Positions 13,341 through 31,568 of a stretch of DNA of 44,658 bases are shown piece after piece. A model generated the notes under the pieces. That model saw nothing but the letters and a program-made list of their open reading frames with translations. It did not search any database and had not been told where the DNA came from. The position numbers and the translations under genes were made by a program. Source of the stretch: Desulfobacterales bacterium. Its GTDB lineage: Bacteria > Desulfobacterota > Desulfobacteria > Desulfobacterales > UBA5852. Positions within the stretch are counted from its first letter, which is position 1. Each line of letters starts with the position of its first letter. The stretch covers positions 1 through 44,658 of the forward strand of contig JASJCD010000001.1 in the NCBI GenBank assembly GCA_030066135.1. Reading direction: 5' to 3'.

Positions 13341-14288
13341 ATGATGAAAACATTGTTCCGATCAGCTGCGTACAGACAAATCGCTGTGACGATCCTGGGC
13401 GTATTCGGCATTGGCCTTCTGATCGGTGCGAACGCCGAGGCCCTCAGTCGAGACGAACGCATCGCTCAGGCCCGCCGGGACTGGCTGGTCGGCCTGGCCA
13501 CCGAAAGGCGGATTGCCGAGGATCTGGCCCGCTATAAATCATCGGACCAGGCCTCGCCGGAAGTCGTCCAGCTTTACGAAACCTATCTGGATCGCGTGCG
13601 GCGCCTTACCGCCGAAAAACGCAAGCTTCTGGATGCCCTCCAGGGCGACCGCAGCAAAGGATCGGCGTCGGCCCATTCGGGCGGTGCTAAAACGAAGTCA
13701 CCTTCTCAGCCCGTATACGATCCCCAGATTCCTGAAGATCAGGAACTTGACGAGATCCGGGCCCTGAATGCGGAACTCGACCGCTCGCTGGCGGCCTTCG
13801 ACGACATGCTCCTGCGAGAAATCGAACAGTCCCGCGTCGAATCCGAGCTCAAAATGCAGAAGTTGGCCCGTGAGGCCGCCCGGGCCGCCAGGTCACTGCG
13901 CGACCAAGGCCAGATGGAGGGCAGCGAAGACACCGAGCAGGGACTGAAAGAAGGCCAGAGCTCCACTGGCAGCGGGAATGAAACCGGAAAAATGGAAGGC
14001 GACCGGCAAGGAGAACAACAGCCGGCCGGGGGGGCCGCGGGCGAGCGTGACGCCGAGGCCAGCCAGAAAGAAAGTGGCCAGGGAACCGATCTGGCCCGCT
14101 CAGAGAACAGGCAAACCAAGGGCACCGCCTCCGGGGAAGCGGGGTCACCGGGCGAAGACGATAACATCAACACCCAGGATGACGATATTGTCGCCCGCCA
14201 GTTGCGGGAAGCTGCCGAAAAGGAAACCGATCCCGAGTTGAAAGAAAAGCTGTGGAAAGAGTACCGCGACTACAAAAAGAGTATTTAG
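13341..14288 (+). CDS. Membrane-anchored or secreted coiled-coil protein, unknown function
   Basis: First gene of the operon, not recognised as a named family. ATG 13341 (with an adjacent ATG 13344) gives 315 residues with a basic N-terminus and one hydrophobic segment (AVTILGVFGIGLLIGANAEA). That segment is either a signal peptide cleaved near ANAEA or an anchor. The rest is charged and helical, with heptad-like stretches around LTAEKRKLLDAL and LLREIEQSRVESELKMQKLAREAARAARSL. A low-complexity Gly/Glu/Gln/Ser linker follows (about residues 195-285) and a short acidic-helical tail ends in WKEYRDYKKSI. It probably acts in the periplasm as a spacer or scaffold. The track start at 13266 adds residues without a credible signal. 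The next ORF overlaps its 3' end. Confidence 0.72.
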   Translation: MMKTLFRSAAYRQIAVTILGVFGIGLLIGANAEALSRDERIAQARRDWLVGLATERRIAEDLARYKSSDQASPEVVQLYETYLDRVRRLTAEKRKLLDALQGDRSKGSASAHSGGAKTKSPSQPVYDPQIPEDQELDEIRALNAELDRSLAAFDDMLLREIEQSRVESELKMQKLAREAARAARSLRDQGQMEGSEDTEQGLKEGQSSTGSGNETGKMEGDRQGEQQPAGGAAGERDAEASQKESGQGTDLARSENRQTKGTASGEAGSPGEDDNINTQDDDIVARQLREAAEKETDPELKEKLWKEYRDYKKSI

Positions 14289-15562
14289 GGTTTCCCGACG
14301 CCAGTCTTACAGCGAGGACCGGTAAGCGCCAAAATCGACGGCGGCGTCCTGTGTTGGTTTCCCTGCTGGGATGTATATTGGTCACGGCTTTAAGCGGCTG
14401 CGCCAGCCACAGTTACAATGCCCGCAATGTGGAGGCCACCCCGATCCAGATCGCCCAGCAGGAGATTCCCGAAGCGGATCTGCTCGACGTGGGGATCGTC
14501 GTTTTTGAAAGCGCCGAGCTTACCGAGGAAGACATCGAGGACAAGGGCACCAACAACGAAATTCGGCAATCCGAGACCCATTTCATTCCCTGCCACCTGC
14601 GCAATACTCTGCAGCGCAGCGCTCAGTGGGGAGCGGTACGCGTCATACCGGAAGAAAGCAGCACCCATGATGTTCTGCTCACCGGCACCATATTGGAATC
14701 CAACGGCCAGGAACTCGTCATTAAAATCAAGGCCACCGATGCCCGCGGCCGCCTCTGGTACGAGGAGACCTATCGTCAGGAAGCCACCGGGGTCTCCTAT
14801 AAAGACAATATCCCGTGGGAGCAGGATGCCTATCAAAACCTTTATAATACGATTGCCAACGATCTGGCCGACCATCGCAAGAAACTCCCGGCCGGTTCAG
14901 TCGACCGGATCCGTTCGATCGCCAAACTGCAATTTGCCCGGGACTTCGCCCCCGATGCCTACGAAGACTACCTCGTCGAAAATGACGATCAGGAAGTGAC
15001 TTTAAACCGCCTGCCGGCGGACGACGATCCCCAGATGGCCCGCCTGATGACCATCCGCGAGCGTGACCACATGTATATCGACACGCTAAATCAATACTAC
15101 GACGGCTTTTATGCCGGAATGTGGCCGGCCTACGAGAATTGGCGCAAGCTGGATCTGACCGAACGGCTGGCCCGGGAGGAAATCGAAAAATCCGCCATGC
15201 TGCGCAAAGCCGGCGGCGCCATGTTGGTGGCCCTGGCCATTTTGCTGGAAGTGACCCAGTCGGGGGCCGGGAATATGCTTCAGGGCGTGATGGCGGTTTC
15301 CGGCGGGCAGGTGTTCATGAGCGGTATCAACCTCTCCAAGCAAGCGGAAATGCACTCGGCGGCCATCGCGGAGCTGAGCGAATCGTTCGGGGCGGATATG
15401 GAACCGGTCAATCTGGAGCTCAAGGGCCAAACCTATGAACTGACCGGTTCAGCCCAAGAGCAATATCGGCAATGGCGGGCGCTCTTGCGTCAGATCTACC
15501 TGCGGGAAACCGGTTTCGAACCTGTCGCGGACGACGGCCCTGACGTGAGCGTGGCCGATTAA
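14252..15562 (+). CDS. Putative outer-membrane or periplasmic lipoprotein, unknown function
   Basis: Contains a lipobox (LVTALSGC, about residues 42-49) after a basic stretch (RQNRRRRP) and a hydrophobic run, so it should be lipidated and exported. The mature part starts ASHSYNARNVEATPI and has a mixed domain (LLDVGIVVFESAELTEEDIED, WGAVRVIPEESSTHDVLLTGTI) resembling ligand- or partner-binding folds of envelope lipoproteins. A helical part follows, with a Gly-rich hydrophobic segment (AGGAMLVALAILLEVTQSGAGNML). No named family was recognised. The start is uncertain: GTG 14252 overlaps the upstream gene by 37 bases and gives an unusually long n-region, while GTG 14351 would give a short one without the arginines. 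It is co-transcribed with its neighbours. Confidence 0.7.
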   Translation: MERVPRLQKEYLGFPDASLTARTGKRQNRRRRPVLVSLLGCILVTALSGCASHSYNARNVEATPIQIAQQEIPEADLLDVGIVVFESAELTEEDIEDKGTNNEIRQSETHFIPCHLRNTLQRSAQWGAVRVIPEESSTHDVLLTGTILESNGQELVIKIKATDARGRLWYEETYRQEATGVSYKDNIPWEQDAYQNLYNTIANDLADHRKKLPAGSVDRIRSIAKLQFARDFAPDAYEDYLVENDDQEVTLNRLPADDDPQMARLMTIRERDHMYIDTLNQYYDGFYAGMWPAYENWRKLDLTERLAREEIEKSAMLRKAGGAMLVALAILLEVTQSGAGNMLQGVMAVSGGQVFMSGINLSKQAEMHSAAIAELSESFGADMEPVNLELKGQTYELTGSAQEQYRQWRALLRQIYLRETGFEPVADDGPDVSVAD

Positions 15563-15634: not shown

Positions 15635-18046
15635 ATGCCGCCTCCAATCCCTTCATCCATTCGTCCACAACAGATTCTCGGCGATCGTTTCGAGCTGCTC
15701 GCGCTTCTGGGCCGGGGGGGCATGGGGGAGGTCTGGCTCACACGGGATCTCGAATTGGAGGTCCGCATTGCGCTGAAACTTTTGCATCCGCGTCTGGCCG
15801 CCGCCGAGGGCGCAGTTGCGTTCATGAAAAACGAATGCCGGGCCGCCCGCCGTCTGACCCACCCCAATATCGTACGTGTCTACGATTTCCACCAGCAGGA
15901 CGATCTGGCGTTCATTTCCATGGAGTGGATCGAGGGTCCCACCTTTGATCGCTGGATGCTTTCTGACGGAACCGATCAGTTGCAACCGGTCCGCGTGCTG
16001 GGCACGGTGGCCGATGCCCTGGACCATATCCATGGGCAGGGGCTGGTGCATCGCGATGTCAAGGCCCGCAACATCCTGATGACCCCGCACGGGCAGCCGA
16101 AATTGACCGATTTTGGCATTGTCGGTCTATGGCGTTTCCAGGAGGACATGCTGAACATCCAGACCGGAGGATCCGCCGCGGGCATGAGCCCCCAGCAGCG
16201 CGAAGGCCACCCTCCGGATCCGGCCGACGATATCTATGCTCTGGGGGTACTGCTGCAGGTGACGCTGGCCGGTGGCCCCAACCCGGCTGTCACCCTGGAC
16301 CTCCCCGGGTCTGACGAAACCGTGGTTCCCGAGATAGAGACGCCCGCGCCTTCAGCCGCCTGGAACACTGGCGCACTGCTGCAGTTGGCCGCCCAGATGC
16401 AGGCGTCTTCCCGCCGCGCGCGCCCCGCCAGCATGACCGTTGTCCGGGATACCATCGATACCGCTCTTGCCGCTGCGGCTGAGAGCACCATGCCGCCGAA
16501 TGCCGACGTCCACCCGCTGGTTGACGACCGGACGTCAAGGACTGCCGACCATGTCGCGCCGCAATCGTACACGCCCGGTAAAGACATCTCAGCCCCGCCC
16601 TCACGGCGGCCGCCCCCATACTGGGGACTGGGCCTGGTCATGGCGGCCGTGGGGTTGATGGCCGCCGGTATCTGGCTCATCACCGTACTGGCCCCCAAGC
16701 CGCCGGTCGCCACGACGCCGGCGGCGTCCCCCGGGCCGGCAGCGGTTGCACCGCCGGCACCATCCGCAGGCCCCGACGGCGGAACCCGTCTGACACGCGC
16801 CCCCCAGGAAACGGCGCCGGGACCGGATCTCATTACGGCCGAAAAGAGCATGGCCCTCTGGCTGCGCCTCAACGAACAGCTCAAAGAGGCACATGCGGCA
16901 GACTGGGCGGCGGAACGGCTCGAACAAATTGAAACGCGCGCGCAAGCCGCCGATGCCGCCATGATGGCCCGCGACTATACCGGGGCCGCGGAAACCTATG
17001 GCGCCGCCGTCGCGGAAGGCGAAGCCCTGCTGGCCGAACGCGAGACCCGGTATGCGGCCGCAATGCAGGCCGGCGCGGAGGCCCTGCAGGCGGAGCGGCC
17101 TGCCAAGGCCCGCGATCATTTTTCATGGGCCCTCAGGATAAAGCCGGGCGATGCCGCTGCCAGCCAGGGTCTAGCGGCCGCCGATATACTTACAAAGGTC
17201 ATGGTGCAGATGGACGCCGGGCGCTCCCATGAAAGGGAGGGGCGCTACGAGCTGGCGCTGGCGGACTATGAGGCCGTGCTCGCGATCGACGGCGATTTTA
17301 TCCCGGCCCGGGAAGCCGTGGACCGCCTGCGGGAACAGATCGCCGCAACCCAGTATAATCGTCTGGTGGCCGATGGCCTGAGTGCCTATCACCAGAACCG
17401 GCTGAATGAGGCCCGCGGCCACATCAAGGAGGCCTTGCTCTATCGGCCAGGCGGCCATGAAGCCCGTGAAGCGTTGCGGCAAATCGACACGGCGGCGCGC
17501 AATCAGCGCATTGCACGCCTGCGGCAGAGAGGAAACAACGCCGAAAACAGGGAACAGTGGGATCAGGCCCTGAAAGCCTATGAAAATGCACTCGCCATCG
17601 ATCCGGCCCTCCAATTCGCCCGCGATGGTGCCGTGCGCAGTCGCGAGCGCATCCGCCTCGACAAGCGCCTGCGCTATTATCTCGACAATCCGGAGGTTCT
17701 GGCATCCGATCGTTATCTGCAGGAAGCGCGTCAGCTGCTGACGGCGATCGCGGCGCTGGAACCGCGCGGTCCCCGTCTGTCCGGGGAGATCCAAACCCTG
17801 GAAGCCCGAATCAAGGCCGCCCAGACCATCGTCCCCGTAACGCTGCTTTCGGACGGTCTGACAGAAGTGGCTGTGCTGCGTGTGGCCCGTCTGGGTCGCA
17901 TCACCCGCCGGACCCTTGATCTGCGCCCGGGCATCTATACCGTCGTCGGGGCGCGCAACGGTTACAAAGATGTCCGCCAAACCATCCGTGTTGAAGCGGA
18001 TCAGCAGGCCTTGCAGGTGTCGATCGCATGCAAAGAAAAGATCTGA
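15635..18046 (+). CDS. Transmembrane Ser/Thr protein kinase with TPR-like repeats
   Basis: An 803-residue Hanks-type kinase. The catalytic domain spans about residues 17-270: Gly-loop GRGGMGEV (26-33), ATP lysine K48 (ALKLL), alphaC glutamate E67, catalytic HRDVKARN (139-146) and DFG (159-161). All key residues are present, so it should be active. A Pro/Ala-rich linker leads to one membrane helix (about 328-354), then an extracytoplasmic Ala-rich helical region with tetratricopeptide-like repeats (SWALRIKPGDAAASQGLAA, YELALADYEAVLAIDGDF, DQALKAYENALAIDPALQF). The end is a PEGA-like beta module (LDLRPGIYTVVGARNGYKDV). It likely senses envelope or machine state and phosphorylates cytoplasmic targets. 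The FHA-domain protein encoded downstream is an obvious candidate partner. It overlaps the next gene by 19 bases. Confidence 0.93.
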   Translation: MPPPIPSSIRPQQILGDRFELLALLGRGGMGEVWLTRDLELEVRIALKLLHPRLAAAEGAVAFMKNECRAARRLTHPNIVRVYDFHQQDDLAFISMEWIEGPTFDRWMLSDGTDQLQPVRVLGTVADALDHIHGQGLVHRDVKARNILMTPHGQPKLTDFGIVGLWRFQEDMLNIQTGGSAAGMSPQQREGHPPDPADDIYALGVLLQVTLAGGPNPAVTLDLPGSDETVVPEIETPAPSAAWNTGALLQLAAQMQASSRRARPASMTVVRDTIDTALAAAAESTMPPNADVHPLVDDRTSRTADHVAPQSYTPGKDISAPPSRRPPPYWGLGLVMAAVGLMAAGIWLITVLAPKPPVATTPAASPGPAAVAPPAPSAGPDGGTRLTRAPQETAPGPDLITAEKSMALWLRLNEQLKEAHAADWAAERLEQIETRAQAADAAMMARDYTGAAETYGAAVAEGEALLAERETRYAAAMQAGAEALQAERPAKARDHFSWALRIKPGDAAASQGLAAADILTKVMVQMDAGRSHEREGRYELALADYEAVLAIDGDFIPAREAVDRLREQIAATQYNRLVADGLSAYHQNRLNEARGHIKEALLYRPGGHEAREALRQIDTAARNQRIARLRQRGNNAENREQWDQALKAYENALAIDPALQFARDGAVRSRERIRLDKRLRYYLDNPEVLASDRYLQEARQLLTAIAALEPRGPRLSGEIQTLEARIKAAQTIVPVTLLSDGLTEVAVLRVARLGRITRRTLDLRPGIYTVVGARNGYKDVRQTIRVEADQQALQVSIACKEKI

Positions 18047-20178
18047 ATAATACCACCCGCCCCGATGAAACCACGCCGCCGGATGTCGTCGGCGCGACGA
18101 CTGTCAAACCGGTCGCTTTCGAACCCCGCGGCGCAAAATCCTCTTCCGGTCAGGATCGACGCGGCCGGCTTTGGCTGGCTGCCCTGGGCCTGCCGGCCGT
18201 TGTATTGGCCGTCCTGGCCTGGTTTGTCTTTACCGCCCGCCAACTCGAGCTCGACATTGTGCCAGCGCCTGAAAAACTAACGATCCAGGGCGGTCTCCTG
18301 ACACCCCGCGTGGGCAAAGCCTACCTGCTGCGACCCGGAAACTATCGCCTGCATGCTGTTCGCGCCGGCTACCACGACCTTGAAACCGACTTCCAGATCG
18401 GTGCGGACAAGCATCAGACCCTCAAGTTCACCATGGAAAAGCTGCCGGGCGTGATTCACCTGACCACGCACCGGGAAGGCCAGCCAGCCGAAGCCGTGAA
18501 CGGCGCCGCTGTCGAAGTCGACGGCGATATTCTCGGCCAGAGCCCGCTGGTGGCGGTCGAGGTGCCCGCGGGCCGCCATACGCTCCGCCTGCAGGCGCCG
18601 CTCTACAAACCGCGGCAGGCGCATATCGATGTGGCGGGAGAGGGCCAGAAGCAGACGTTCGCCTTCGGGCTGGAGCCCAACTGGGCTGATGTCAGTTTCG
18701 AGACCAACCCGCCCGGCGCCTGGATTCAATTGGCTGGCCGCCGTCTGGGTCAGACCCCTCTGACGGCACCCCTGGAAGCCGGCCACCATCAGGTGCAAAT
18801 CCGCCGGGAAGGCTACAAACCGGCCTCCACGCGCATTCATGTGATCGCCGGCCAGGCCCTGGCGGTTCCGCCCCTAGCGCTTGAAAAGGTCGCAGGACGC
18901 CTGTTCGTCACCTCCCGCCCCACGGGGGCCAACGTCACGGTTGGCGACCGTTTCTATGGGCAGACTCCCATCGACCTCGCCCTGCCGGCGGATCAGGAAT
19001 ACGTGGTGCGCATTTCCGAACCAGGCTACAAAACGGCCGCGCACCGCGTGCGGGTGGCCAGCGGTGGCAAAGCCTCTGTGGCGGCCGATCTGGTGCCGCG
19101 CCGCGGGAGGATTCGCTTCAAGGTGTCCCCACCGGAAGCCCGATTGCTGGTAAATGGCCAGCCATACGGCCGGGTGCCGGCGTCGCTGGATCTCCTGGCC
19201 GTCCGCCATCAGATCCAGATCGTCAGGGAAGGCTACCGCGACTACCGCACCCAGATTACCCCCCGCCCAGGTTACACTCTGGAGCTCAATGTCAAACTCA
19301 AGCGCCCCTATGAAACCGACGTCCCCGGCATCATCCAGGCCCCCAACGGCTACCGTCTTAAGCTGATCCAACCGGCGGCGGCAACTTTCCGCATGGGGTC
19401 ATCGCGCCGCGAGCAGGGCCGCCGGGCCAATGAAACCCTGCGTGATGTCAGCCTGCGCCACCCGTTTTACATGGGCCTGAAAGAGGTCACCAACGGCCAG
19501 TTTCGAGAATTTCAGGCGGCCCACGACGCCGGCATCTTCAAAAACTATAGTTTGAACCGCAACGAACAGCCCGCGACCCGGATCACATGGCAGCAGGCCG
19601 CCGCCTTCTGCAACTGGTTAAGCCAGCGGGAGGGGCTGCCCCCGGCCTATGTTTCCCAAAGAGGAGGCGGGTTGAAACCGGCGATCCCCCTGAACCATGG
19701 CTACCGCCTGCCGACCGAGGCCGAATGGGCTTTCTGTGCCCGTGTGGATGCATCCGGAAGTGTGGTCAAATACCCCTGGGGGAACAAATTCCCGCCGAAG
19801 GACCGAACCGCGAACCTGGCCGATCAGTCCGCCCAGACGATCCTGCAGCTGTTTCTGCAAAACTACAAAGACGGGCATCCGGTGGCCGCCCCGCCGGGCA
19901 GTCTGAAGCCTAATCACCTGGGTCTGTTCGATATGGGGGGCAACGTCTCGGAATGGTGCCACGACTATTACATGATCTATCCCTATACCCAAGGCCGGGT
20001 GGTCACCGATCCGACCGGTCCGGCAACCGGACGCCACCACGTCATCCGGGGGGGAAGCTGGAAGCAGGCCTCAATCCAGACCCTGCGCGCCGCCCACCGC
20101 GATTATCAGGAGAAGAAGCGCCTGGATCTGGGATTCCGTATCGGCCGCTATGTCGCGCCAAACAAGGAGACAGACTGA
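18028..20178 (+). CDS. Membrane-anchored PEGA-repeat protein with SUMF1-like domain lacking catalytic Cys
   Basis: A 716-residue protein with a short cytoplasmic N-terminus, one membrane helix (about 51-71), several PEGA-type beta modules (GHHQVQIRREGYKPAS, EYVVRISEPGYKTAA, RHQIQIVREGYRDYR; about 75-430) and a C-terminal formylglycine-generating-enzyme-type domain (about 450-712). The fold is clear from TFRMGSSRREQ, YRLPTEAEWAFCAR, LFDMGGNVSEWCHDYY, VIRGGSW and DLGFRIGRY. After RGGSW, true sulfatase-modifying enzymes have the two copper/catalytic cysteines; here the stretch is KQASIQTLRAAHRD with none. It is therefore probably a structural or binding domain, like other non-enzymatic SUMF1-family proteins. 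PEGA repeats suggest peptidoglycan or surface association. It overlaps both neighbours, so it is tightly coupled to the kinase. Confidence 0.9.
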   Translation: MQRKDLNNTTRPDETTPPDVVGATTVKPVAFEPRGAKSSSGQDRRGRLWLAALGLPAVVLAVLAWFVFTARQLELDIVPAPEKLTIQGGLLTPRVGKAYLLRPGNYRLHAVRAGYHDLETDFQIGADKHQTLKFTMEKLPGVIHLTTHREGQPAEAVNGAAVEVDGDILGQSPLVAVEVPAGRHTLRLQAPLYKPRQAHIDVAGEGQKQTFAFGLEPNWADVSFETNPPGAWIQLAGRRLGQTPLTAPLEAGHHQVQIRREGYKPASTRIHVIAGQALAVPPLALEKVAGRLFVTSRPTGANVTVGDRFYGQTPIDLALPADQEYVVRISEPGYKTAAHRVRVASGGKASVAADLVPRRGRIRFKVSPPEARLLVNGQPYGRVPASLDLLAVRHQIQIVREGYRDYRTQITPRPGYTLELNVKLKRPYETDVPGIIQAPNGYRLKLIQPAAATFRMGSSRREQGRRANETLRDVSLRHPFYMGLKEVTNGQFREFQAAHDAGIFKNYSLNRNEQPATRITWQQAAAFCNWLSQREGLPPAYVSQRGGGLKPAIPLNHGYRLPTEAEWAFCARVDASGSVVKYPWGNKFPPKDRTANLADQSAQTILQLFLQNYKDGHPVAAPPGSLKPNHLGLFDMGGNVSEWCHDYYMIYPYTQGRVVTDPTGPATGRHHVIRGGSWKQASIQTLRAAHRDYQEKKRLDLGFRIGRYVAPNKETD

Positions 20179-20480
20179 TGCCGGCGGCCGCCAGAGGATG
20201 GGGGGTCGGCCTGTTGCTGGTGGTCTGGCTGCTGGCGGCTCATCCGGCCGGGGCTGAGAACGATGCCGCCGTCTCGCCTTCCCCGCCCCCCCGCCAGTCA
20301 GCGGAAAGTAACGAAGACCGTCCGGAAAACGCCGCGTCCGAATCATCTGCGGAGGCACAAGCCCGGCCGGCCGCCAAAGCGCCGGACCGGTCCCCGGCGA
20401 CGCCGCGCAACCGCAAGCCTTTCCAGCCCTCGGAGGAAATCCACGTGGACAAAGCGGTGGATTTCCCGGCGGACATATGA
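20178..20480 (+). CDS. Small exported Pro/Ala-rich protein, unknown function
   Basis: A 100-residue protein whose ATG overlaps the previous stop (TGATG), so it is translationally coupled. The N-terminus is a clear signal peptide (RGWGVGLLLVVWLLAAHPAGA). The mature part is low-complexity Ser/Pro/Ala/Glu and ends in a more ordered tail, EEIHVDKAVDFPADI, which may be a docking peptide. No family recognised. A MITE-like element begins six bases after its stop. Confidence 0.65.
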   Translation: MPAAARGWGVGLLLVVWLLAAHPAGAENDAAVSPSPPPRQSAESNEDRPENAASESSAEAQARPAAKAPDRSPATPRNRKPFQPSEEIHVDKAVDFPADI

Positions 20481-20809: not shown

Positions 20810-21613
20810 ATGAAACACAATCTGCCTGTTTCGTTTGAATTTATCTACCAGTTGTTTGCCCTGATCATCATTGTGATCGCGGTGCACGCCGTCTACGTGG
20901 CCGCCATTCGTCCGGCGGCCGATACCTTCCTGCAGCAGCAGGCCGAACGCGTGGCCAGCGGGCAGCCGGCGGAAACGGAGCAATCGATTTTTGTGATGAT
21001 CCGGGATTATGAGCAGGAGGCCTGCTTTATTCTGATGTTCTGGGCCCTGGCCATCATGGCCTATAAAAGCATCACCACCATCCGCCATCGGCGGCTGCTG
21101 AACGAGGATCTGATCCCCCTGGCCGAGGGGGTCCGCGTGCTGCCCGAAGACACCCTGGCCCTGTCCCGCCGTATCCAGGCCCTGCCTGCCGAACAGCGCC
21201 AATCGCTTCTGCCGCGGGCCCTGCTGGCCGCCCTGCAGCGTTTCAGCTCGACGCGCAACATCCAGGATGTGGCCAATGCCATGCATGCTTACTGCTCGAG
21301 CGAAGGCGAACGCCTGGACAGTGAACTGGCCATGATCCGCTATATCGCCTGGGCCATTCCTTCGGTCGGATTTATCGGCACCGTGCGGGGCATTGGTCAA
21401 GCCCTGGGCCACGCCCACAAGGCCCTTGAGGGCGATATCATGGAGGTTACCCGCAGCCTGGGCGTAGCGTTCAACTCCACGCTGATCGCGCTGCTCATCA
21501 GCATCGTGCTCATGTTTCTGCTCCATCAGCTGCAACTGCTGCAGGAACGCTATATTCTGGATTCGGAAGCTTACTGTGAAGACAAACTGACCCGTCGGCT
21601 GCACACCCGTTAG
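20810..21613 (+). CDS. MotA/TolQ/ExbB family proton-channel protein
   Basis: A 267-residue inner-membrane protein. Helix 1 is near residues 12-32 (IYQLFALIIIVIAVHAVYVAA), helix 2 near 70-87, then a cytoplasmic helical domain, and helices 3 and 4 at IAWAIPSVGFIGTVRGIGQAL and LGVAFNSTLIALLISIVLMFL. The last two match the ExbB/TolQ pore helices, including the polar threonines (IGT and NST) that line the ion path. Members form pentamers around a dimer of a single-helix ExbD/TolR/MotB partner. No such classical partner is encoded here; the two VWA proteins downstream have a suitable N-terminal helix. The gene lies just after the MITE-like element. Confidence 0.9.
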   Translation: MKHNLPVSFEFIYQLFALIIIVIAVHAVYVAAIRPAADTFLQQQAERVASGQPAETEQSIFVMIRDYEQEACFILMFWALAIMAYKSITTIRHRRLLNEDLIPLAEGVRVLPEDTLALSRRIQALPAEQRQSLLPRALLAALQRFSSTRNIQDVANAMHAYCSSEGERLDSELAMIRYIAWAIPSVGFIGTVRGIGQALGHAHKALEGDIMEVTRSLGVAFNSTLIALLISIVLMFLLHQLQLLQERYILDSEAYCEDKLTRRLHTR

Positions 21614-21624
21614 AGGATACGCAG

Positions 21625-23043
21625 GTGAACATCATCGGACTGGAAATACACGACACCGGCATCCTGTGTGCCGGCCCCGAAGGCCGGCTGCACCCCACGG
21701 ACGCGGAGGCCCTGGAGAGTCCGGGATTCGCCCTCGTGCACGGCCAGAATCTACAGCTCGGCATGTCCGCGCTGCACCAGGCCCGGCGGCGTCCCCGGCA
21801 GGTCATTTGCCGTTTCTGGGAAGAGCTCAACACCCAGCCGCTACTGAGCCCGGAGTTCGAGGGCTACAATCATGCCGAGCTGGCATACCGGCACCTGGAA
21901 CAGGTATGGCGCCAGGTTAGCGCCGATGCCGCGGAGGTGGTGCTCACCGTTCCCGACCACTACGAGGACCGTGAACTGGGCCTGCTGCTGGGCATTGCCT
22001 CCGTCCTGGGCCTGCCGATCCGCGGACTGATCTCCCAGGCGCTGGCCTGTACCCCTCCCGAAACCGATCAGGGCACCGACTTCCACGTTGATCTTCATCT
22101 CCACCGTCTGGTGCTTACGGCCGTCGATGGCCGCCCCCGCCCGGAAGTGGTCCGGCATGAAACCATCATCGATCAGGGCCGGGAGGCCGTCCACCGCGAG
22201 TGGGTCAAAATGCTGGCCGATGCCTTCGTGCACCAGACCCGGTTTGATCCGCTCTATGCGGCCGATGCCGAACAGGATCTGCACGACCGCCTGCCGCAAA
22301 TCGCCGATGCGCGGCAGCAGGACCCGATCCATGTCGAAATGCAGGCCGACGGTCGGACCCATCGCATCCAGCTCGATCAGCAGGCCTTTATGGCCCCTTT
22401 GGCCCCCTGGATTGAAAATCTCGGGCACACCATCGGCGACTGGCAGAGAGCGCTTTCCGTGTCGCCGGATGATTCCCGTCTCGTGCTGACCCATCGGGTG
22501 GCCGCGCTGCCGGGGTTCGTGGACACCCTGGAGAATGTTACCGGTTTGAAAGCCCGTCGGCTGTCTGCGGGTGCGGCCGCCGCCAACGCCCTGGCCTACG
22601 CCCAACTATTCTCCAAAGGCAGTACAGCACACGGGGTACCCTACCTGAAGCGCGTTCCCAGGGCGCCGGCGGACACGGCCGCGGTGCGCGCCGCGGCCCC
22701 GGCGGAAGACGAACCTGACCTGCCCACCCACCTGCTCTACCGCGGCCGGGCCTACCCCATCGTGGACGAGCCCCTGGTGGTGGGTCGTGAGCTGCCGGCC
22801 GGTACACGCGGTATTCTTATCCAAGGCCGGCTGGCAGGTGTTTCACGGCATCATTTTTCGGTAATCCGCGAGGATCAGCAGGTCCTGCTGATCGACTCCA
22901 GCAGCTATGGCACCCTCGTGGATGAAGTGCCGGTGATGGACCGCCGCGCCCTGATGGTGGGTCAAATCATACGCATCGGAAAACCGGGGGAAACCCTGCA
23001 GGCCATTGCCTGCCTGTCGCACCATGAAACGACGATCCCTTAA
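21625..23043 (+). CDS. Actin/Hsp70-like ATPase-fold protein with C-terminal FHA domain
   Basis: A 472-residue cytoplasmic protein; GTG 21625 has GAGG upstream and sits 11 bases after the ExbB-like stop. The N-terminal 340 residues resemble a diverged Hsp70/actin fold: IIGLEIHDTGILCAG at the phosphate-1 position, VVLTVPDHYEDRELGLLLGIASVLGLPIRGLISQALA (as in VPAYFND...NEPTAAALA of DnaK) and FHVDLHLHRLVLTAV at the phosphate-2 position. The usual GGG/GTT glycines are not conserved, so ATP hydrolysis is doubtful. The C-terminal 95 residues are an FHA domain: VVGRELPAGTRGI, then SRHHFSV and LIDSSSYGTLVDEVPV. These are the residues that bind phosphothreonine. It probably reads phosphorylation by the operon's kinase. 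Confidence 0.85.
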   Translation: MNIIGLEIHDTGILCAGPEGRLHPTDAEALESPGFALVHGQNLQLGMSALHQARRRPRQVICRFWEELNTQPLLSPEFEGYNHAELAYRHLEQVWRQVSADAAEVVLTVPDHYEDRELGLLLGIASVLGLPIRGLISQALACTPPETDQGTDFHVDLHLHRLVLTAVDGRPRPEVVRHETIIDQGREAVHREWVKMLADAFVHQTRFDPLYAADAEQDLHDRLPQIADARQQDPIHVEMQADGRTHRIQLDQQAFMAPLAPWIENLGHTIGDWQRALSVSPDDSRLVLTHRVAALPGFVDTLENVTGLKARRLSAGAAAANALAYAQLFSKGSTAHGVPYLKRVPRAPADTAAVRAAAPAEDEPDLPTHLLYRGRAYPIVDEPLVVGRELPAGTRGILIQGRLAGVSRHHFSVIREDQQVLLIDSSSYGTLVDEVPVMDRRALMVGQIIRIGKPGETLQAIACLSHHETTIP

Positions 23044-24115
23044 TGTATTCAGCCTGTCTTTCATCGACTGCATCTGTTGCGGTCTGGGGGCTGTTATCCT
23101 GCTCTTCGTCATCGTCAATGCCAAAAGCGCCGTACAGCGCGAAAAAGTGACCCGGGATGTCCACAGCGAGGCCACGCGCATTGAACGCGAAGTCCTGGAG
23201 GGCCGCAAGCGGCTGGTGGAGTTGAGGAACGCACTCGAGAAAACCGAGGCGGATATTGCGCGCACGCAAGGGGCCAGCCGCCGTATTCTCAAGCGCCTGG
23301 AAGAACGCCGCACCGAGATCGCGCACTACGACAAGGAGAACCTGGCGGAGAAAGCCCACCTCAACAAACTCAAAGCCGACGTCCGCTCCCTGGAGGAAGA
23401 AGTCAAACGACTCAAGGCCGGCAGTCAGGCCGAAGACGACCGGGGCGACACCATTCGCACTTTTGCCGGCGAGGGCGACCGTCAGTACCTGACCGATCTC
23501 AAGGTGGGCGGCCGCCGTATCTTCATCCTCGTCGACACCTCGGCCAGCATGCTCGACGACACCATCGTCGGCATCATCCGCCGGCGCAACATGCCCGCGG
23601 CGGAAAAAATCAGATCGCCCAAGTGGCGCCAGGCCGCTGCCACAGTAGACTGGATTACGGCCCAGTTGCCGGCCGAGAGCAAGTACCAGATCTACACCTT
23701 CAATGAGAGTGCCCAGCCGCTTGTGCCCGGTACCCGCAACCAGTGGCTGCCGGCCGCCGAGAGCAAGCGCCTGGACGAAGCGGTGAAACGACTCTATGAG
23801 ACCGCCCCGGAGAAGAGCACCAGTCTGGCCAACGCCTTCGACGCCCTCAATCGCCTGACGCCGCCGCCGGACAATATCTTTCTGCTGACCGACGGGCTCC
23901 CCACCATGGGGGCCGGCAAACCCTGGCGCCGCAAGGTCTCCAGCAAAAAGCGCCTGAGCCTGTTCAACGATGCCGTCGAAAAGCTGCCGGCCAAGGTGCC
24001 GGTCAACGTCATCCAGTTCCCCCTGCGGGGGGACCCCATGGCCGCCAGCGCTTTCTGGCGGCTGGCCACCCGCACCCGGGGCAGCTATTTCTGCCCGGCG
24101 GCGGACTGGCCCTGA
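23024..24115 (+). CDS. Membrane-anchored VWA-domain protein 1 with ExbD-like N-terminal helix
   Basis: ATG 23024 overlaps the FHA gene by 20 bases and gives 363 residues. A single membrane helix comes first (FSLSFIDCICCGLGAVILLFVIV, about 9-31). It is unusual in holding an acidic residue near its cytoplasmic end, followed by CxCC. A long charged coiled coil follows (about 40-140; EREVLEGRKRLVELRNALEKTEADI), then a VWA domain (about 165-363) with the metal-site motif DTSASM and a later TDGLPTMG. The layout of short N-terminus, one acid-bearing helix and a periplasmic domain matches ExbD/TolR/MotB topology, with VWA in place of the usual periplasmic domain. It is paralogous to the next gene. 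The last residues (SYFCPAADWP) end cleanly. Confidence 0.88.
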   Translation: MKRRSLNVFSLSFIDCICCGLGAVILLFVIVNAKSAVQREKVTRDVHSEATRIEREVLEGRKRLVELRNALEKTEADIARTQGASRRILKRLEERRTEIAHYDKENLAEKAHLNKLKADVRSLEEEVKRLKAGSQAEDDRGDTIRTFAGEGDRQYLTDLKVGGRRIFILVDTSASMLDDTIVGIIRRRNMPAAEKIRSPKWRQAAATVDWITAQLPAESKYQIYTFNESAQPLVPGTRNQWLPAAESKRLDEAVKRLYETAPEKSTSLANAFDALNRLTPPPDNIFLLTDGLPTMGAGKPWRRKVSSKKRLSLFNDAVEKLPAKVPVNVIQFPLRGDPMAASAFWRLATRTRGSYFCPAADWP

Positions 24116-24130
24116 AGGGGGCGAAAGCCC

Positions 24131-25159
24131 ATGGCCCGCGAACGACGCCAAATCGAAATTTTCAGCCTGTCCTTTCTGGACTGCATCTGCTGCGCCTTCG
24201 GGGCTATCATTCTTTTGTTTGTCCTGTCCAAATTTTCCGAACCGACGGTCATCGAAAAGGTGCGCACGGACCTGCGGGCCGACATCATCCGGATGGAAGA
24301 AGAACGCCATGAAATCAGAGGGCAGACCGTGCTCCTCGACCGGGAGCTCACCGCCAAACGTGTGGTGCAGTCCCAATCGCGTCAGAAACTGGCCCGCCTT
24401 CAGGGTGACCTCACCGCCATCGAGGGTGAATTCGCCGCTTCACGTGACGATGCCGAGGTCCAGAACATCATCGAGGGTCGCATGGCCCGCGCCCTGCAGG
24501 AGCTCACGGAAGAAATGAAAAAACTCTCCCTGGCGCCGCGCAAAAGGATCGACCGCCGTGTGGGCGGCATCCCCGTGGACAGCGAATACATCATCTTCAT
24601 CATCGACACCTCGGGCAGCATGCAGCGCGCCGCCTGGGTGACGGTCCAGAACAAAATCCGCGAGACCCTCGACATCTACCCCAAGGTCAAGGGGATTCAG
24701 GTCATGAACGATATGGGCGAATACATGTTTCCCCATTACCGGGGAAGATGGATCCCCGACACGTCGCGGTTCCGCAACCGGATCGTCGATACCCTGCGGA
24801 CCTGGTTTCCCTTCAGCAACAGCAGCCCCGTGGAAGGCATCACCGAAGCCATACGAACCTATTACGATCCCGACCTTCGCATCAGCCTCTATGTTTTCGG
24901 GGATGAGTACAGCGGCAAAAACATGCAGGGGGCCATCGAGGCGGTGGACCGGATCAACCGCGCGGACAAACAAGGCCGTCGTCGGGTGCGTATCCACGCG
25001 GTGGGGTTCCCCACCGTACTGGACGATCCGCGGGGCATCACCGGCGTGCGCTTCGCCACCCTGATGCGCGCCCTGTGCGAACGCAACGGCGGCGCCTACG
25101 TGGGCCTGAATCAATCCCACGGGTTGGGCACCGGGCGCGGCATCCGCATTCGTTTCTGA
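24131..25159 (+). CDS. Membrane-anchored VWA-domain protein 2 with ExbD-like N-terminal helix
   Basis: A 342-residue paralogue of the preceding protein, starting 15 bases after it. The N-terminal helix is almost the same (FSLSFLDCICCAFGAIILLFVL), again with the Asp and CxCC. A charged helical stretch follows (about 40-130), then a VWA domain with intact MIDAS motif (IIDTSGSM, about 156-163) and later LRISLYVFGDEYSG. The MIDAS is closer to consensus than in protein 1, where the corresponding motif is DTSASM. Two non-identical single-helix proteins could form the heterodimer at the centre of an ExbB-type pentamer. It is the last gene of the operon and is followed by a long inverted repeat. Confidence 0.88.
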   Translation: MARERRQIEIFSLSFLDCICCAFGAIILLFVLSKFSEPTVIEKVRTDLRADIIRMEEERHEIRGQTVLLDRELTAKRVVQSQSRQKLARLQGDLTAIEGEFAASRDDAEVQNIIEGRMARALQELTEEMKKLSLAPRKRIDRRVGGIPVDSEYIIFIIDTSGSMQRAAWVTVQNKIRETLDIYPKVKGIQVMNDMGEYMFPHYRGRWIPDTSRFRNRIVDTLRTWFPFSNSSPVEGITEAIRTYYDPDLRISLYVFGDEYSGKNMQGAIEAVDRINRADKQGRRRVRIHAVGFPTVLDDPRGITGVRFATLMRALCERNGGAYVGLNQSHGLGTGRGIRIRF

Positions 25160-28494: not shown

Positions 28495-28640
28495 CTTACC
28501 GGTGAACGCCGCACCAGCGGCCCGTCTCTTACCCCATCAATACACACGACCCAAGCGCGTCATGCGGCTTGCCCCCAGACGAATCGGTTGTTAAAGCCGC
28601 TCGATTCTTCACCTCAAACCGGCAGAACCAAGGAGGCCCA

Positions 28641-29654
28641 ATGAAGAAACTGCATTCGATCGTTGCCCTGACGTTAATGGTGTTGATGCTGGCAGCCCTG
28701 GCACCGGCCAGTCACGCCGCCGCCCCGACCATCAAACTGACCTACAGCATCTTTTTCCCACCCTCCCACGGCCAATGCCAGGCAGCCGTCGCCTGGGCCG
28801 AGGCGATCGGGAAGCGCACCAACGGCCGGGTGCAGATCCAGGTCTTTCCGGCCGGCACCCTGACCAAGGCCAAGCAATGCTACGACGGCGTCGTCAACGG
28901 CATCTCCGATATCGGCATGTCGGTTTTTGCTTACACGCGCGGCCGTTTCCCGGTCATGGAAGCCCTGGACCTGCCCCTGGGCTACCCCAGCGGGCTGGTG
29001 GCCACCCGCGCGGCCAATGATTTTTATGCCAAGTTCCAGCCCAAGGAACTGGCCCAGGTCAAACTCCTGTATCTGCATGCTCACGGCCCCGGTCTGCTGC
29101 ACACCAAAAAGCCGGTCAAAGACATGGCCGGCCTGCAGGGCATGAAGATCCGCTCCACCGGTTTGAGTGCCAAGATCGTCGAGAAACTGGGCGGGGTGCC
29201 GGTGGCCATGCCCCAGCCGTCCACATACGAAGCCCTGCAGAAAGGCGTCGTCGAGGGCACCTTCGGGCCCATCGAGGTGCTCAAAGGCTGGAAGCAGGGT
29301 GAGGTGGTCAAATCCACCACCGACTGCCGCGGCGTGGGCTACACGACGGCCATGTTCGTGGTCATGAATCGCAGCAAATGGGAAAAGCTGCCCGCCGATG
29401 TTCAGAAGGTGTTCACCGAGACGAGTCAGGAATGGATCGACGTGCATGGCCGCACCTGGGACAAAAACGATGAAGAGGGCCGGGCCTTTACCCTGAGTCT
29501 CGGCAACCAGGTCATCCCCCTCTCGGATGGGGAGAGCGCCAAATGGAAGGGCGCCGTGCAGCCCATCATTGACAATTACGTCCAGTCGGCTAAAAGCAAG
29601 GGGCTTGCGGGGGACGACTACATCAAAACCCTGAATGAGTTGATCGCCCGCTGA
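28641..29654 (+). CDS. TRAP transporter substrate-binding protein (DctP family)
   Basis: A 337-residue periplasmic binding protein. ATG 28641 has AAGGAGG six bases upstream and starts a signal peptide ([25 protein letters not shown]). The mature chain begins [20 protein letters not shown]. It has the DctP fold marks: [42 protein letters not shown] (with the arginine that usually contacts a substrate carboxylate) and [19 protein letters not shown]. The ligand is probably an organic acid, but cannot be named. It is the first gene of a complete TRAP operon, 31 bases before DctQ. Confidence 0.94.
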
Positions 29655-29685
29655 AGCAGCAATCAACCCGGCACCGGGAGGAAAA

Positions 29686-30174
29686 GTGATTCAGCGCCTC
29701 GAAAAATGGACCGCACGGGCCGCCGAAGTCTTCAACTGGGTTGCGGCGGCAGCCGTAACAGGCATGATGCTCCTGACCTGTATGGATATCGTGCTGCGCC
29801 TGTTCCGGCGGCCCATCCCCGGCACGTATGAAGTCGTGGGATTCCTGGGAGCGGTTTTCGCGGCCTTCTCACTGGGGTACACGTCTGTCAATCGCGGGCA
29901 TATTGCCGTTGATTTCATCGTCCAGAAATTGCCGGCCCGGGTTCAGACCGTCGTGGACGGCGTAAATGCCGCGGTCTGCGCGGTGCTCTTTGGTCTGCTG
30001 GCCCGCCAGAGCATGCGCTATGCCGCCGATTTGCGATCCTTCGGCGAAGTGTCGATGACCCTGCAGATGCCGGTCTATCCCTTTGTTTACGGTATCGCCG
30101 CGGGCTGCTGGCTGCTGGTGCTGGTGCTGGCTGTGCGGGTGTTGAAGAACCTGGCGGTCACCCTGAAACCTTAA
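29686..30174 (+). CDS. TRAP transporter small permease (DctQ family)
   Basis: A 162-residue membrane protein with four helices; GTG 29686 has GGGAGG upstream. The family pattern is seen in LLTCMDIVLRLFRRPIPGTYEVVGFLGAVFAAFSLGYTSVNRGHIAVDFIV and the final MPVYPFVYGIAAGCWLLVLV. DctQ couples the binding protein to the large permease. Encoded between DctP and DctM. Confidence 0.93.
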   Translation: MIQRLEKWTARAAEVFNWVAAAAVTGMMLLTCMDIVLRLFRRPIPGTYEVVGFLGAVFAAFSLGYTSVNRGHIAVDFIVQKLPARVQTVVDGVNAAVCAVLFGLLARQSMRYAADLRSFGEVSMTLQMPVYPFVYGIAAGCWLLVLVLAVRVLKNLAVTLKP

Positions 30175-30266
30175 ACCGCAAGCCGCGGATTCAATATCTG
30201 AATCCCGGCCGTTGAACCCGGCGCCATCCGATCGGGATGGCGCCTTTGTTGTGGAAAGAGATTCGC

Positions 30267-31568
30267 ATGTCCCCGACCGCAATCGGCGTGGTGGGTCTGA
30301 TCGCCCTCTTCGTTCTCATCTTCTCGCGCATGCCCGTGGGCTTTGTCATGGCCCTGATCGGCTTTACGGGTTTCAGCACGGTCGTTTCCTGGGATGCCGC
30401 CTTGAGCCTGTTCGCCAAGGATATCTTCGATGTCTTCGGCTCTTATAACCTCACCGTCATCCCCCTGTTCATCCTCATGGGACAGATTTCTTTTCATGCC
30501 GGCATCAGCACACGGCTTTTCGATGTGGCCTACAAGTTCATCGGCCACTGGCCGGGGGGGCTGGCCATCGCCACCATCGGGGCCTGCACCGGTTTTGCGG
30601 CCATCTGCGGCTCCACCAACGCCACGGCCGCCACCATGGCGGCCGTGACCCTGCCGGAAATGCGCAAGTATGACTACCACGATTCCCTGGCCGCCGGCGT
30701 CGTGGCGGCCGGCGGCAGCATGGGGATTCTGGTCCCGCCCAGCGTCATCTTCATCATCTACGGGATCATGACCGAACAATCCATCGGCGAACTCTTCATG
30801 GCCGGCATCATACCGGGGCTGCTCCTGGCGGTGCTCTTCGTCATCGCCATCGTGGTCTGGGTATCCCTGTCCCCGGAGATCGCTCCCCGGGGGCCGCGCA
30901 CCAGCCTGCGGGAACGCCTGGCTTCGCTGGCGGGCCTGATCGAAACCCTGCTGCTCTTCGCCCTCGTCATGGGCGGGCTCTTCCTGGGCTTCTTCACCCC
31001 CACCGAGGCCGGCGCCGTGGGAGCCTTCGGATCGATCCTGATCGCCGTCCTGCGCCGCAACCTTACGGTGCGGGGCTTCATCCAGTCCCTCTTCGAAACC
31101 ACCCGCATCTCCTGCATGATCCTGGTGATCGTGGCCGGTGCCACGGTGTTCGGCCATTTTCTGGCCGTCACCCGGATTCCCTTCGACATCGCCGCCTGGG
31201 TGGCGGGGTTCAACCTGCCGCCCTGGGCCATCATGAGCATGATTATCACGGCCTACCTCGTGGGCGGCTGCGTGATCGACGCCCTGGCCCTGATCATGCT
31301 CACCGTGCCGATCTTCTACCCGGTGGTGACCGCCATGGGCTACAACCCCATCTGGTTCGGTGTGATCATCGTGCTGGTGACCCAGATTGGTGTGATCACC
31401 CCGCCGGTGGGGGTCAACGTCTACGTGGTGAGCGGCGTGGCCCGCGATATCCCCCTGCAGGTGATCTTCAAAGGCGTCGTCCCGCTGTTGATCGCCCTCG
31501 TGGTCGGCACCTTGCTGATGCTGCCTTTTCCCCAGATCGCCCTCTATCTGCCCGGCCTGATGCGGTAG
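30267..31568 (+). CDS. TRAP transporter large permease (DctM family)
   Basis: A 433-residue membrane protein with about twelve helices, the ion-coupled transport subunit. Recognisable segments are SRMPVGFVMALIGFTGF, GAVSGSTNA-like CGSTNATAATMAAVTLPEMRKYDYHDSLAAGVVAAGGSMGILVPPSVIFIIYG, and the C-terminal GVITPPVGVNVYVVSGVARDIPL. The track start (30237) is extended by ten residues; ATG 30267 follows AAAGAGA and begins next to the first helix. It is the last gene of the TRAP operon. Confidence 0.94.
   Translation: MSPTAIGVVGLIALFVLIFSRMPVGFVMALIGFTGFSTVVSWDAALSLFAKDIFDVFGSYNLTVIPLFILMGQISFHAGISTRLFDVAYKFIGHWPGGLAIATIGACTGFAAICGSTNATAATMAAVTLPEMRKYDYHDSLAAGVVAAGGSMGILVPPSVIFIIYGIMTEQSIGELFMAGIIPGLLLAVLFVIAIVVWVSLSPEIAPRGPRTSLRERLASLAGLIETLLLFALVMGGLFLGFFTPTEAGAVGAFGSILIAVLRRNLTVRGFIQSLFETTRISCMILVIVAGATVFGHFLAVTRIPFDIAAWVAGFNLPPWAIMSMIITAYLVGGCVIDALALIMLTVPIFYPVVTAMGYNPIWFGVIIVLVTQIGVITPPVGVNVYVVSGVARDIPLQVIFKGVVPLLIALVVGTLLMLPFPQIALYLPGLMR

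Follow-up and report, generated by a model that had tools for sequence, protein, structure and literature searches.

Few trans-envelope ion motors are, to our knowledge, known in bacteria, and most of these were found through a phenotype. Here we describe an operon that likely encodes such a motor, built around an ExbB-like channel protein and two VWA proteins (VWA1 and VWA2), on the forward strand of a 44,658-nucleotide stretch of a Desulfobacterales bacterium (GenBank assembly GCA_030066135.1, contig JASJCD010000001.1, positions 1 to 44,658; hereafter the window). The closest described system is the family of VWA proteins with a trans-pore helix (TPH-vWA), to which a paper of June 2025 (Mol Biol Evol, msaf138; PMC12204202) gives one passage and one figure. 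With Idiomarina loihiensis as the seed, this passage presents heterologous pairs of TPH-vWA proteins beside tolQ homologues, with a conserved aspartate and no tolR/exbD, and AlphaFold 3 models having the vWA helices inside a TolQ-like pentamer. Since that passage already puts such a VWA pair forward as axle in a TolQ-like pentamer, the core idea is not ours, and the remark in an earlier note on this DNA, that the architecture was not familiar as a described system, is out of date. New here are the gene set of the operon, its micropeptide, the TolB/FlgT-like domain predicted in its lipoprotein, and a variant with a kinase and an Hsp70-like/FHA protein; the gene set around the motor appears to be undescribed.

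The VWA pair and its channel

Both VWA proteins begin with a predicted pore helix (FSLSFIDCICCGLGAVILLFV / FSLSFLDCICCAFGAIILLFV) bearing a single aspartate. Beyond the helix, their N-terminal halves are coiled-coil-like and their C-terminal halves consist of a VWA domain with the metal-site motif DxSxS. Relatives were gathered by whole-protein searches of related genomes, and then with a profile restricted to the helix, which found more of them. Run over a single genome for each species, it returned 504 encoded relatives, from which 80 loci were retained with their flanks. Among the proteins with a visible N-terminus, the helix aspartate is kept in 174/174 (87/87 VWA1 and 87/87 VWA2). A hidden Markov model built from 15 ExbD proteins encoded in these genomes and run over 90 homologous loci found no ExbD (0/90; best E-value 0.075, for a 477-residue open reading frame), the MotB family not having been searched separately. 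As the best explanation of this conservation and of the absence of ExbD at the loci, we consider it likely that the products of the operon form a 5:2-type envelope motor driven by ions, with the VWA pair as its axle. The published AlphaFold 3 models of the TPH-vWA family, as presented in the passage cited above, agree with this. The earlier note had proposed the two paralogues as the central dimer of an ion-driven machine, with the conservation of the aspartate and the lack of a nearby ExbD/TolR among its points to check; it passed on both, and its proposal is thus supported. In the shared helix that it described, the aspartate does not vary, but the cysteines that it named mostly do, C19 in VWA1 and C21 in VWA2 alone being fixed.

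The conservation of the aspartate is not an effect of ascertainment, because the loci were found with patterns of which 71 of the 80 VWA1 genes fit none. Eight alphaproteobacterial VWA1 (L074, L080, L082, L083, L091, L097, L114 and L135) seemingly lacked the residue because their start codon had been called wrongly, and the codons upstream of the called start restore it. These genes use CTG as their start codon and, in the string CTGA, it overlaps the stop codon of exbB, which couples ExbB and VWA1 in these loci; a standard gene caller would leave the aspartate out. A 45-column profile of the helix gave strong matches in 8/296 genomes of the phylum, three weaker matches (E-value > 0.003) being left out, and there were matches in 15/185 genomes of a Rheinheimera-centred class sample, with the aspartate in 25/25 helices read from the latter. 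With so few genomes matched and the aspartate always present, the shared helix is not a chance resemblance; the 15/185 genomes of the class sample indicate that the system is sporadic.

Both metal ion-dependent adhesion sites (MIDAS) are intact. VWA1 matches the Pfam VWA_2 family (E-value = 5.9e-8). The window VWA2 matches a VWA family with an E-value of 0.097 only, and 9/26 of its orthologues match VWA_2 (best 2.8e-6), the DxSxS motif being invariant. VWA1 ends in a Trp-Pro pair (window positions 24107-24112) that almost every relative shares (W 87/88, P 88/88).

The ExbB-like protein exhibits four hydrophobic segments, around residues 20, 80, 183 and 228. Its assignment to the ExbB/TolQ family follows from the Pfam match. 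Its ungapped alignment with a solved TolQ chain, taken from a single-sequence search with an E-value of 0.44, rests on this family match and on that of both pore threonines, Thr191 and Thr224, whose spacing of 33 is that of T145/T178 in TolQ, and not on the E-value. A search of PDB chains with the ExbB family profile yielded nothing significant. The pore threonines reported by the earlier note are thus confirmed, being invariant among relatives.

Several results weigh against a VWA axle. The VWA proteins have no match to PF02472 in Pfam, and a profile comparison of their helices with ExbD by hhalign gave a probability of 0.6%, so that homology is not detectable; by these comparisons, the window VWA proteins are not members of the ExbD family. 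Covariation between the VWA helices and the ExbB-like protein is weak and not informative: transmembrane helices 3 and 4 hold 30% of the top pairs, against 13% of the variable columns, with an effective number of 27 and shared phylogeny. An ExbD is encoded elsewhere in the genome in 36/36 host genomes searched, so that a distant axle protein might help; the window's own genome has a single PF02472 match, on another contig. This distribution would suit an arrangement in which the VWA proteins are force transducers bound to the side of the channel, like TonB or TolA, around an ExbD/TolR axle encoded elsewhere, and the same paper (PMC12204202) does describe another vWA family, whose topology is TonB-like. 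We regard such an arrangement as unlikely, since that family comes with tolR-like genes, which were not found at the present loci, the SHLS motif of TonB/TolA-like side binding is absent from all sequences scanned (0/175), and no role is known for an invariant aspartate in a helix of that kind.

Gene order and distribution

The 80 loci come from Gamma-, Alpha- and Betaproteobacteria (Nitrosomonadaceae), Desulfobacterota and one member of Opitutales. The order GENA-LIPO-TPRPEGA-PEGAFGE-EXBB-VWA1-VWA2, on one strand, is complete in 58/80 loci, nearly all others being shortened by contig ends. Both VWA paralogues are present in 80/80 loci and the ExbB-like gene in 75/80, most of the remainder being cut by a contig end; the order EXBB-VWA1-VWA2 occurs in 74/80. 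Locus L125, from Idiomarina, has orthologues of the window's LIPO, TPR/PEGA, PEGA-FGE, ExbB, VWA1 and VWA2, and an Aliidiomarina locus (L112) is likewise orthologous gene by gene. Table 1 lists the features of the window. The ExbB-like gene and the two VWA genes lie where the earlier note had placed them, whereas the gene at 21625-23043, between ExbB and VWA1, was missing from its layout. VWA1 starts at the ATG at 23024, overlapping this preceding gene. Genes of a TRAP transporter follow downstream (28569-31568; by appearance a solute-binding protein and the small and large membrane subunits) and are apparently unrelated.

Table 1. Features of the operon in the window (positions in the 44,658-nucleotide stretch)
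Feature	Position	Strand	Description	Evidence
GENA	13341..14288	+	Secreted or anchored coiled-coil protein, low-complexity linker, conserved C-terminus	First operon gene in 59/80 loci
LIPO	14252..15562	+	Lipoprotein, lipobox LSGC; predicted TolB N-domain/flagellar LPHT-ring-like domain, long helical hairpin	62/80 loci
TPR/PEGA	15635..18046	+	Transmembrane Ser/Thr kinase fused to periplasmic TPR repeats and PEGA-like end	Pkinase 8.7e-29, TPR 3.3e-11
PEGA-FGE	18028..20178	+	One N-terminal transmembrane helix, four PEGA domains, FGE/SUMF1-like domain	PEGA 2.3e-57; FGE 2.1e-41
Micropeptide	20178..20480	+	Signal peptide, linker, C-terminal tail FQPSEEIHVDKAVDFPADI	Tail at same place in 76/76 loci
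ExbB-like	20810..21613	+	ExbB/TolQ/MotA-family channel, four predicted transmembrane helices	PF01618 1.5e-14
ExbB Thr191 codon	21380..21382	+	Aligned with TolQ Thr145 (ungapped)	Invariant 83/83
ExbB Thr224 codon	21479..21481	+	Aligned with TolQ Thr178 (ungapped)	Invariant 83/83
Hsp70-like/FHA	21625..23043	+	Predicted Hsp70 nucleotide-binding-domain-like protein, C-terminal FHA; between ExbB and VWA1	FHA 6e-8
VWA1	23024..24115	+	Predicted N-terminal pore helix, ~100-residue coiled coil, VWA with MIDAS, near-invariant C-terminal Trp-Pro	
VWA1 Asp15 codon	23066..23068	+		79/79 plus 8 CTG-start loci = 87/87
VWA1 MIDAS DxSxS	23534..23548	+		D171 87/88, S173 88/88, S175 87/88; T266 85/87; D290 87/87
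VWA2	24131..25159	+	Predicted N-terminal pore helix, coiled coil, VWA domain	
VWA2 Asp17 codon	24179..24181	+		87/87
VWA2 MIDAS DTSGS	24605..24619	+		D159, S161, S163 each 87/87

A few loci encode proteins with a single pore helix (L026:8731-9540, L035:1492-2166, L147:3522-4214, and also L164), of which those in L026, L035 and L147 adjoin ExbB-like genes. They combine the helix with a coiled coil and a different C-terminal domain that Pfam does not name (a weak DUF5697 match in one), and keep the aspartate as MLD or ALD instead of FLD. Their neighbours in L026 and L147 include FHA, VWA-FHA, PP2C and kinase genes. These proteins would be a second branch of the motor.

The existence of relatives with an ExbB-like protein and one helix protein makes a homodimer possible in principle, so that VWA1 and VWA2 might each form their own, giving two alternative motors that share one channel protein. 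This would be a variant of the motor proposed here and is not exclusive of it. We hold it to be rather improbable, considering that the two paralogues always occur together, with short gaps between their genes or with the genes overlapping, and that their helix residues differ consistently between VWA1 and VWA2. A heterodimer is the preferred form of the VWA axle.

Envelope partners, micropeptide and kinase variant

The first operon gene, GENA, lies in a reading frame open from 13266, with 13341 as its probable start; the loci that lack it are mostly cut by contig ends. The lipoprotein has its mature cysteine codon at 14399, its start codon being uncertain. Its fold is predicted by an AlphaFold 2 model (pLDDT 85.7), which Foldseek matches to a flagellar LPHT-ring protein (8z5n, E-value = 1.5e-4) and to the N-terminal region of TolB (probability 0.99-1.00); the whole-chain TM-scores are low despite the high probabilities, owing to a single matching domain. 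The PEGA-FGE protein matches the GldK model at 3.7e-33 with 115 bits, and its domain is related to GldK/PorK. Membership in GldK itself was rejected, the score lying below the equivalog cut-off of 350 and no GldL, GldM or GldN models being among the operon matches. The FGE-like domain of the window reads RGGSWKQASIQTLRAAHR and presumably lacks the active-site cysteines of formylglycine-generating enzymes; it is therefore probably structural, as in GldK. These envelope components recall parts of other 5:2 systems (TolB, the flagellar ring, GldK), an analogy and not a proof of function.

The interval between PEGA-FGE and ExbB holds, in 76/76 loci, a small gene whose product begins with what resembles a signal peptide and finishes in a C-terminal tail of the form F-P-x-[D/N/H]-I. 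The F, the P and the final I are invariant, and the upstream residues have the form I-S-L-[D/N]-S-P-V-S. Over the 80 loci (2.5 million bases, read in six frames) this ending occurs 78 times, mostly at the micropeptide site. A pattern for it, run on 28 whole genomes, has essentially a single true match in each, located at the operon, plus a few chance matches. The micropeptide is thus a dedicated component, and the idea of a genome-wide sorting tag was rejected. The open reading frame is shorter than 60 codons in many species, so that annotation would miss the gene; the window version has a long disordered linker. The micropeptide is a very specific marker of the system and a likely binding partner. 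Our guess is that its FPxDI end could be a ligand for the VWA metal site or for the lipoprotein.

In the window, the TPR/PEGA protein carries an N-terminal kinase domain, as do 5/29 of the orthologues scanned, the rest being without kinase. The Hsp70-like/FHA protein has a predicted fold (AlphaFold 2, pLDDT 85.4) that matches the nucleotide-binding domain of DnaK (E-value = 3.8e-18, TM-score 0.79 by target). The phosphate loop of Hsp70 is DLGGGT. The window protein reads DLHLHR at this position, so that ATP hydrolysis may be lost. A kinase is present in 5/5 testable loci where the relative of this protein has intact FHA residues (SRxH) and in 0/8 where they are degenerate, although the loci are related and these counts overstate their independence; the direction is clear, with kinase and FHA occurring jointly in these sequences.

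Kinase, FHA and Hsp70-like parts are typical of signalling, and no activity is known for the ExbB-like/VWA complex. One might accordingly see in it a static anchor or a sensor with vestigial or structural ion sites. We find this hard to believe, as several classes keep the aspartate and both threonines without exception, and a purely structural role does not easily account for this.

For an ion-driven motor with a VWA axle, what we infer of its assembly, stoichiometry, ion flow, partners, gating and purpose is as follows. Five ExbB-like chains would form the channel, with the N-terminal helices of VWA1 and VWA2, most likely one each, in its centre. The single aspartate of each helix would pick up and release protons (or Na+) facing two rings of threonines. 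Two coiled coils, each of ~100 residues, would transmit the turning through the periplasm to the VWA domains with their metal site, towards the outer membrane. The targets of these domains would probably be the operon's own envelope proteins, namely the PEGA-FGE protein, the TolB/FlgT-like lipoprotein and the FPxDI peptide. In the window variant, the transmembrane kinase with its periplasmic TPR/PEGA part would probably signal to the cytoplasmic Hsp70-like/FHA protein, which would gate the motor. If this is true, the kinase variant would be an ion motor under phosphorylation control.

Relation to known systems

The motor proposed here would have an unusual axle, and the gene set that encodes it is conserved in several Gram-negative classes. 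Many of the hosts are culturable (Idiomarinaceae, Methylophaga, Rheinheimera, Salinimonas), and the invariant residues make direct mutational tests possible. Only tentatively do we suggest that the whole is a separate class of motor, complete with a VWA heterodimer as the axle of an ExbB-like pentamer, a PEGA-FGE protein and a TolB/FlgT-like lipoprotein dedicated to it, a secreted F-P-x-D-I peptide of perhaps 12-20 residues (longer in the window) as obligate ligand and, in some lineages, a kinase/Hsp70-like/FHA switch.

The ExbB-like protein matches the ZorA profile weakly (0.0057), which might suggest an anti-phage motor of the Zorya type. We consider this very improbable, the match being marginal, ZorB, ZorC and ZorD having no match, and the fixed set of envelope proteins in all loci being unlike a mobile defence cassette; membership in Zorya, with that one weak match in its favour, was rejected.

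With the TPH-vWA family the operon shares the aspartate-bearing trans-pore helix, the heterologous pair beside a tolQ-like gene, and the absence of tolR/exbD and of SHLS. The passage and figure legend that PMC12204202 devotes to this family mention no PEGA/FGE, lipoprotein or micropeptide genes and no kinase/Hsp70-FHA variant. Tol-Pal (TolQ-TolR-TolA-TolB-Pal) and Ton (ExbB-ExbD-TonB) have in common with it the channel family, the pore threonines and an axle helix with one aspartate, and the lipoprotein's TolB-N-like domain is a further likeness to Tol-Pal. However, the operon's axle would be a VWA pair and not ExbD/TolR, no TolA/TonB side transducer or Pal is seen in the operon, and the ExbB-like protein is predicted to have four transmembrane segments, as in MotA. 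Like the type IX secretion system (GldK-GldL-GldM-GldN), the locus would combine a 5:2 motor, as proposed here, with an FGE/SUMF1-like envelope protein, but the latter has added PEGA domains and the hosts are not Bacteroidota. Finally, the MotA/MotB and PomA/PomB stators with the LPHT/FlgT ring share the four-transmembrane channel subunit, and the lipoprotein domain resembles the LPHT ring (8z5n), whereas the axle proposed here has no peptidoglycan-binding domain and no flagellar genes adjoin the operon.

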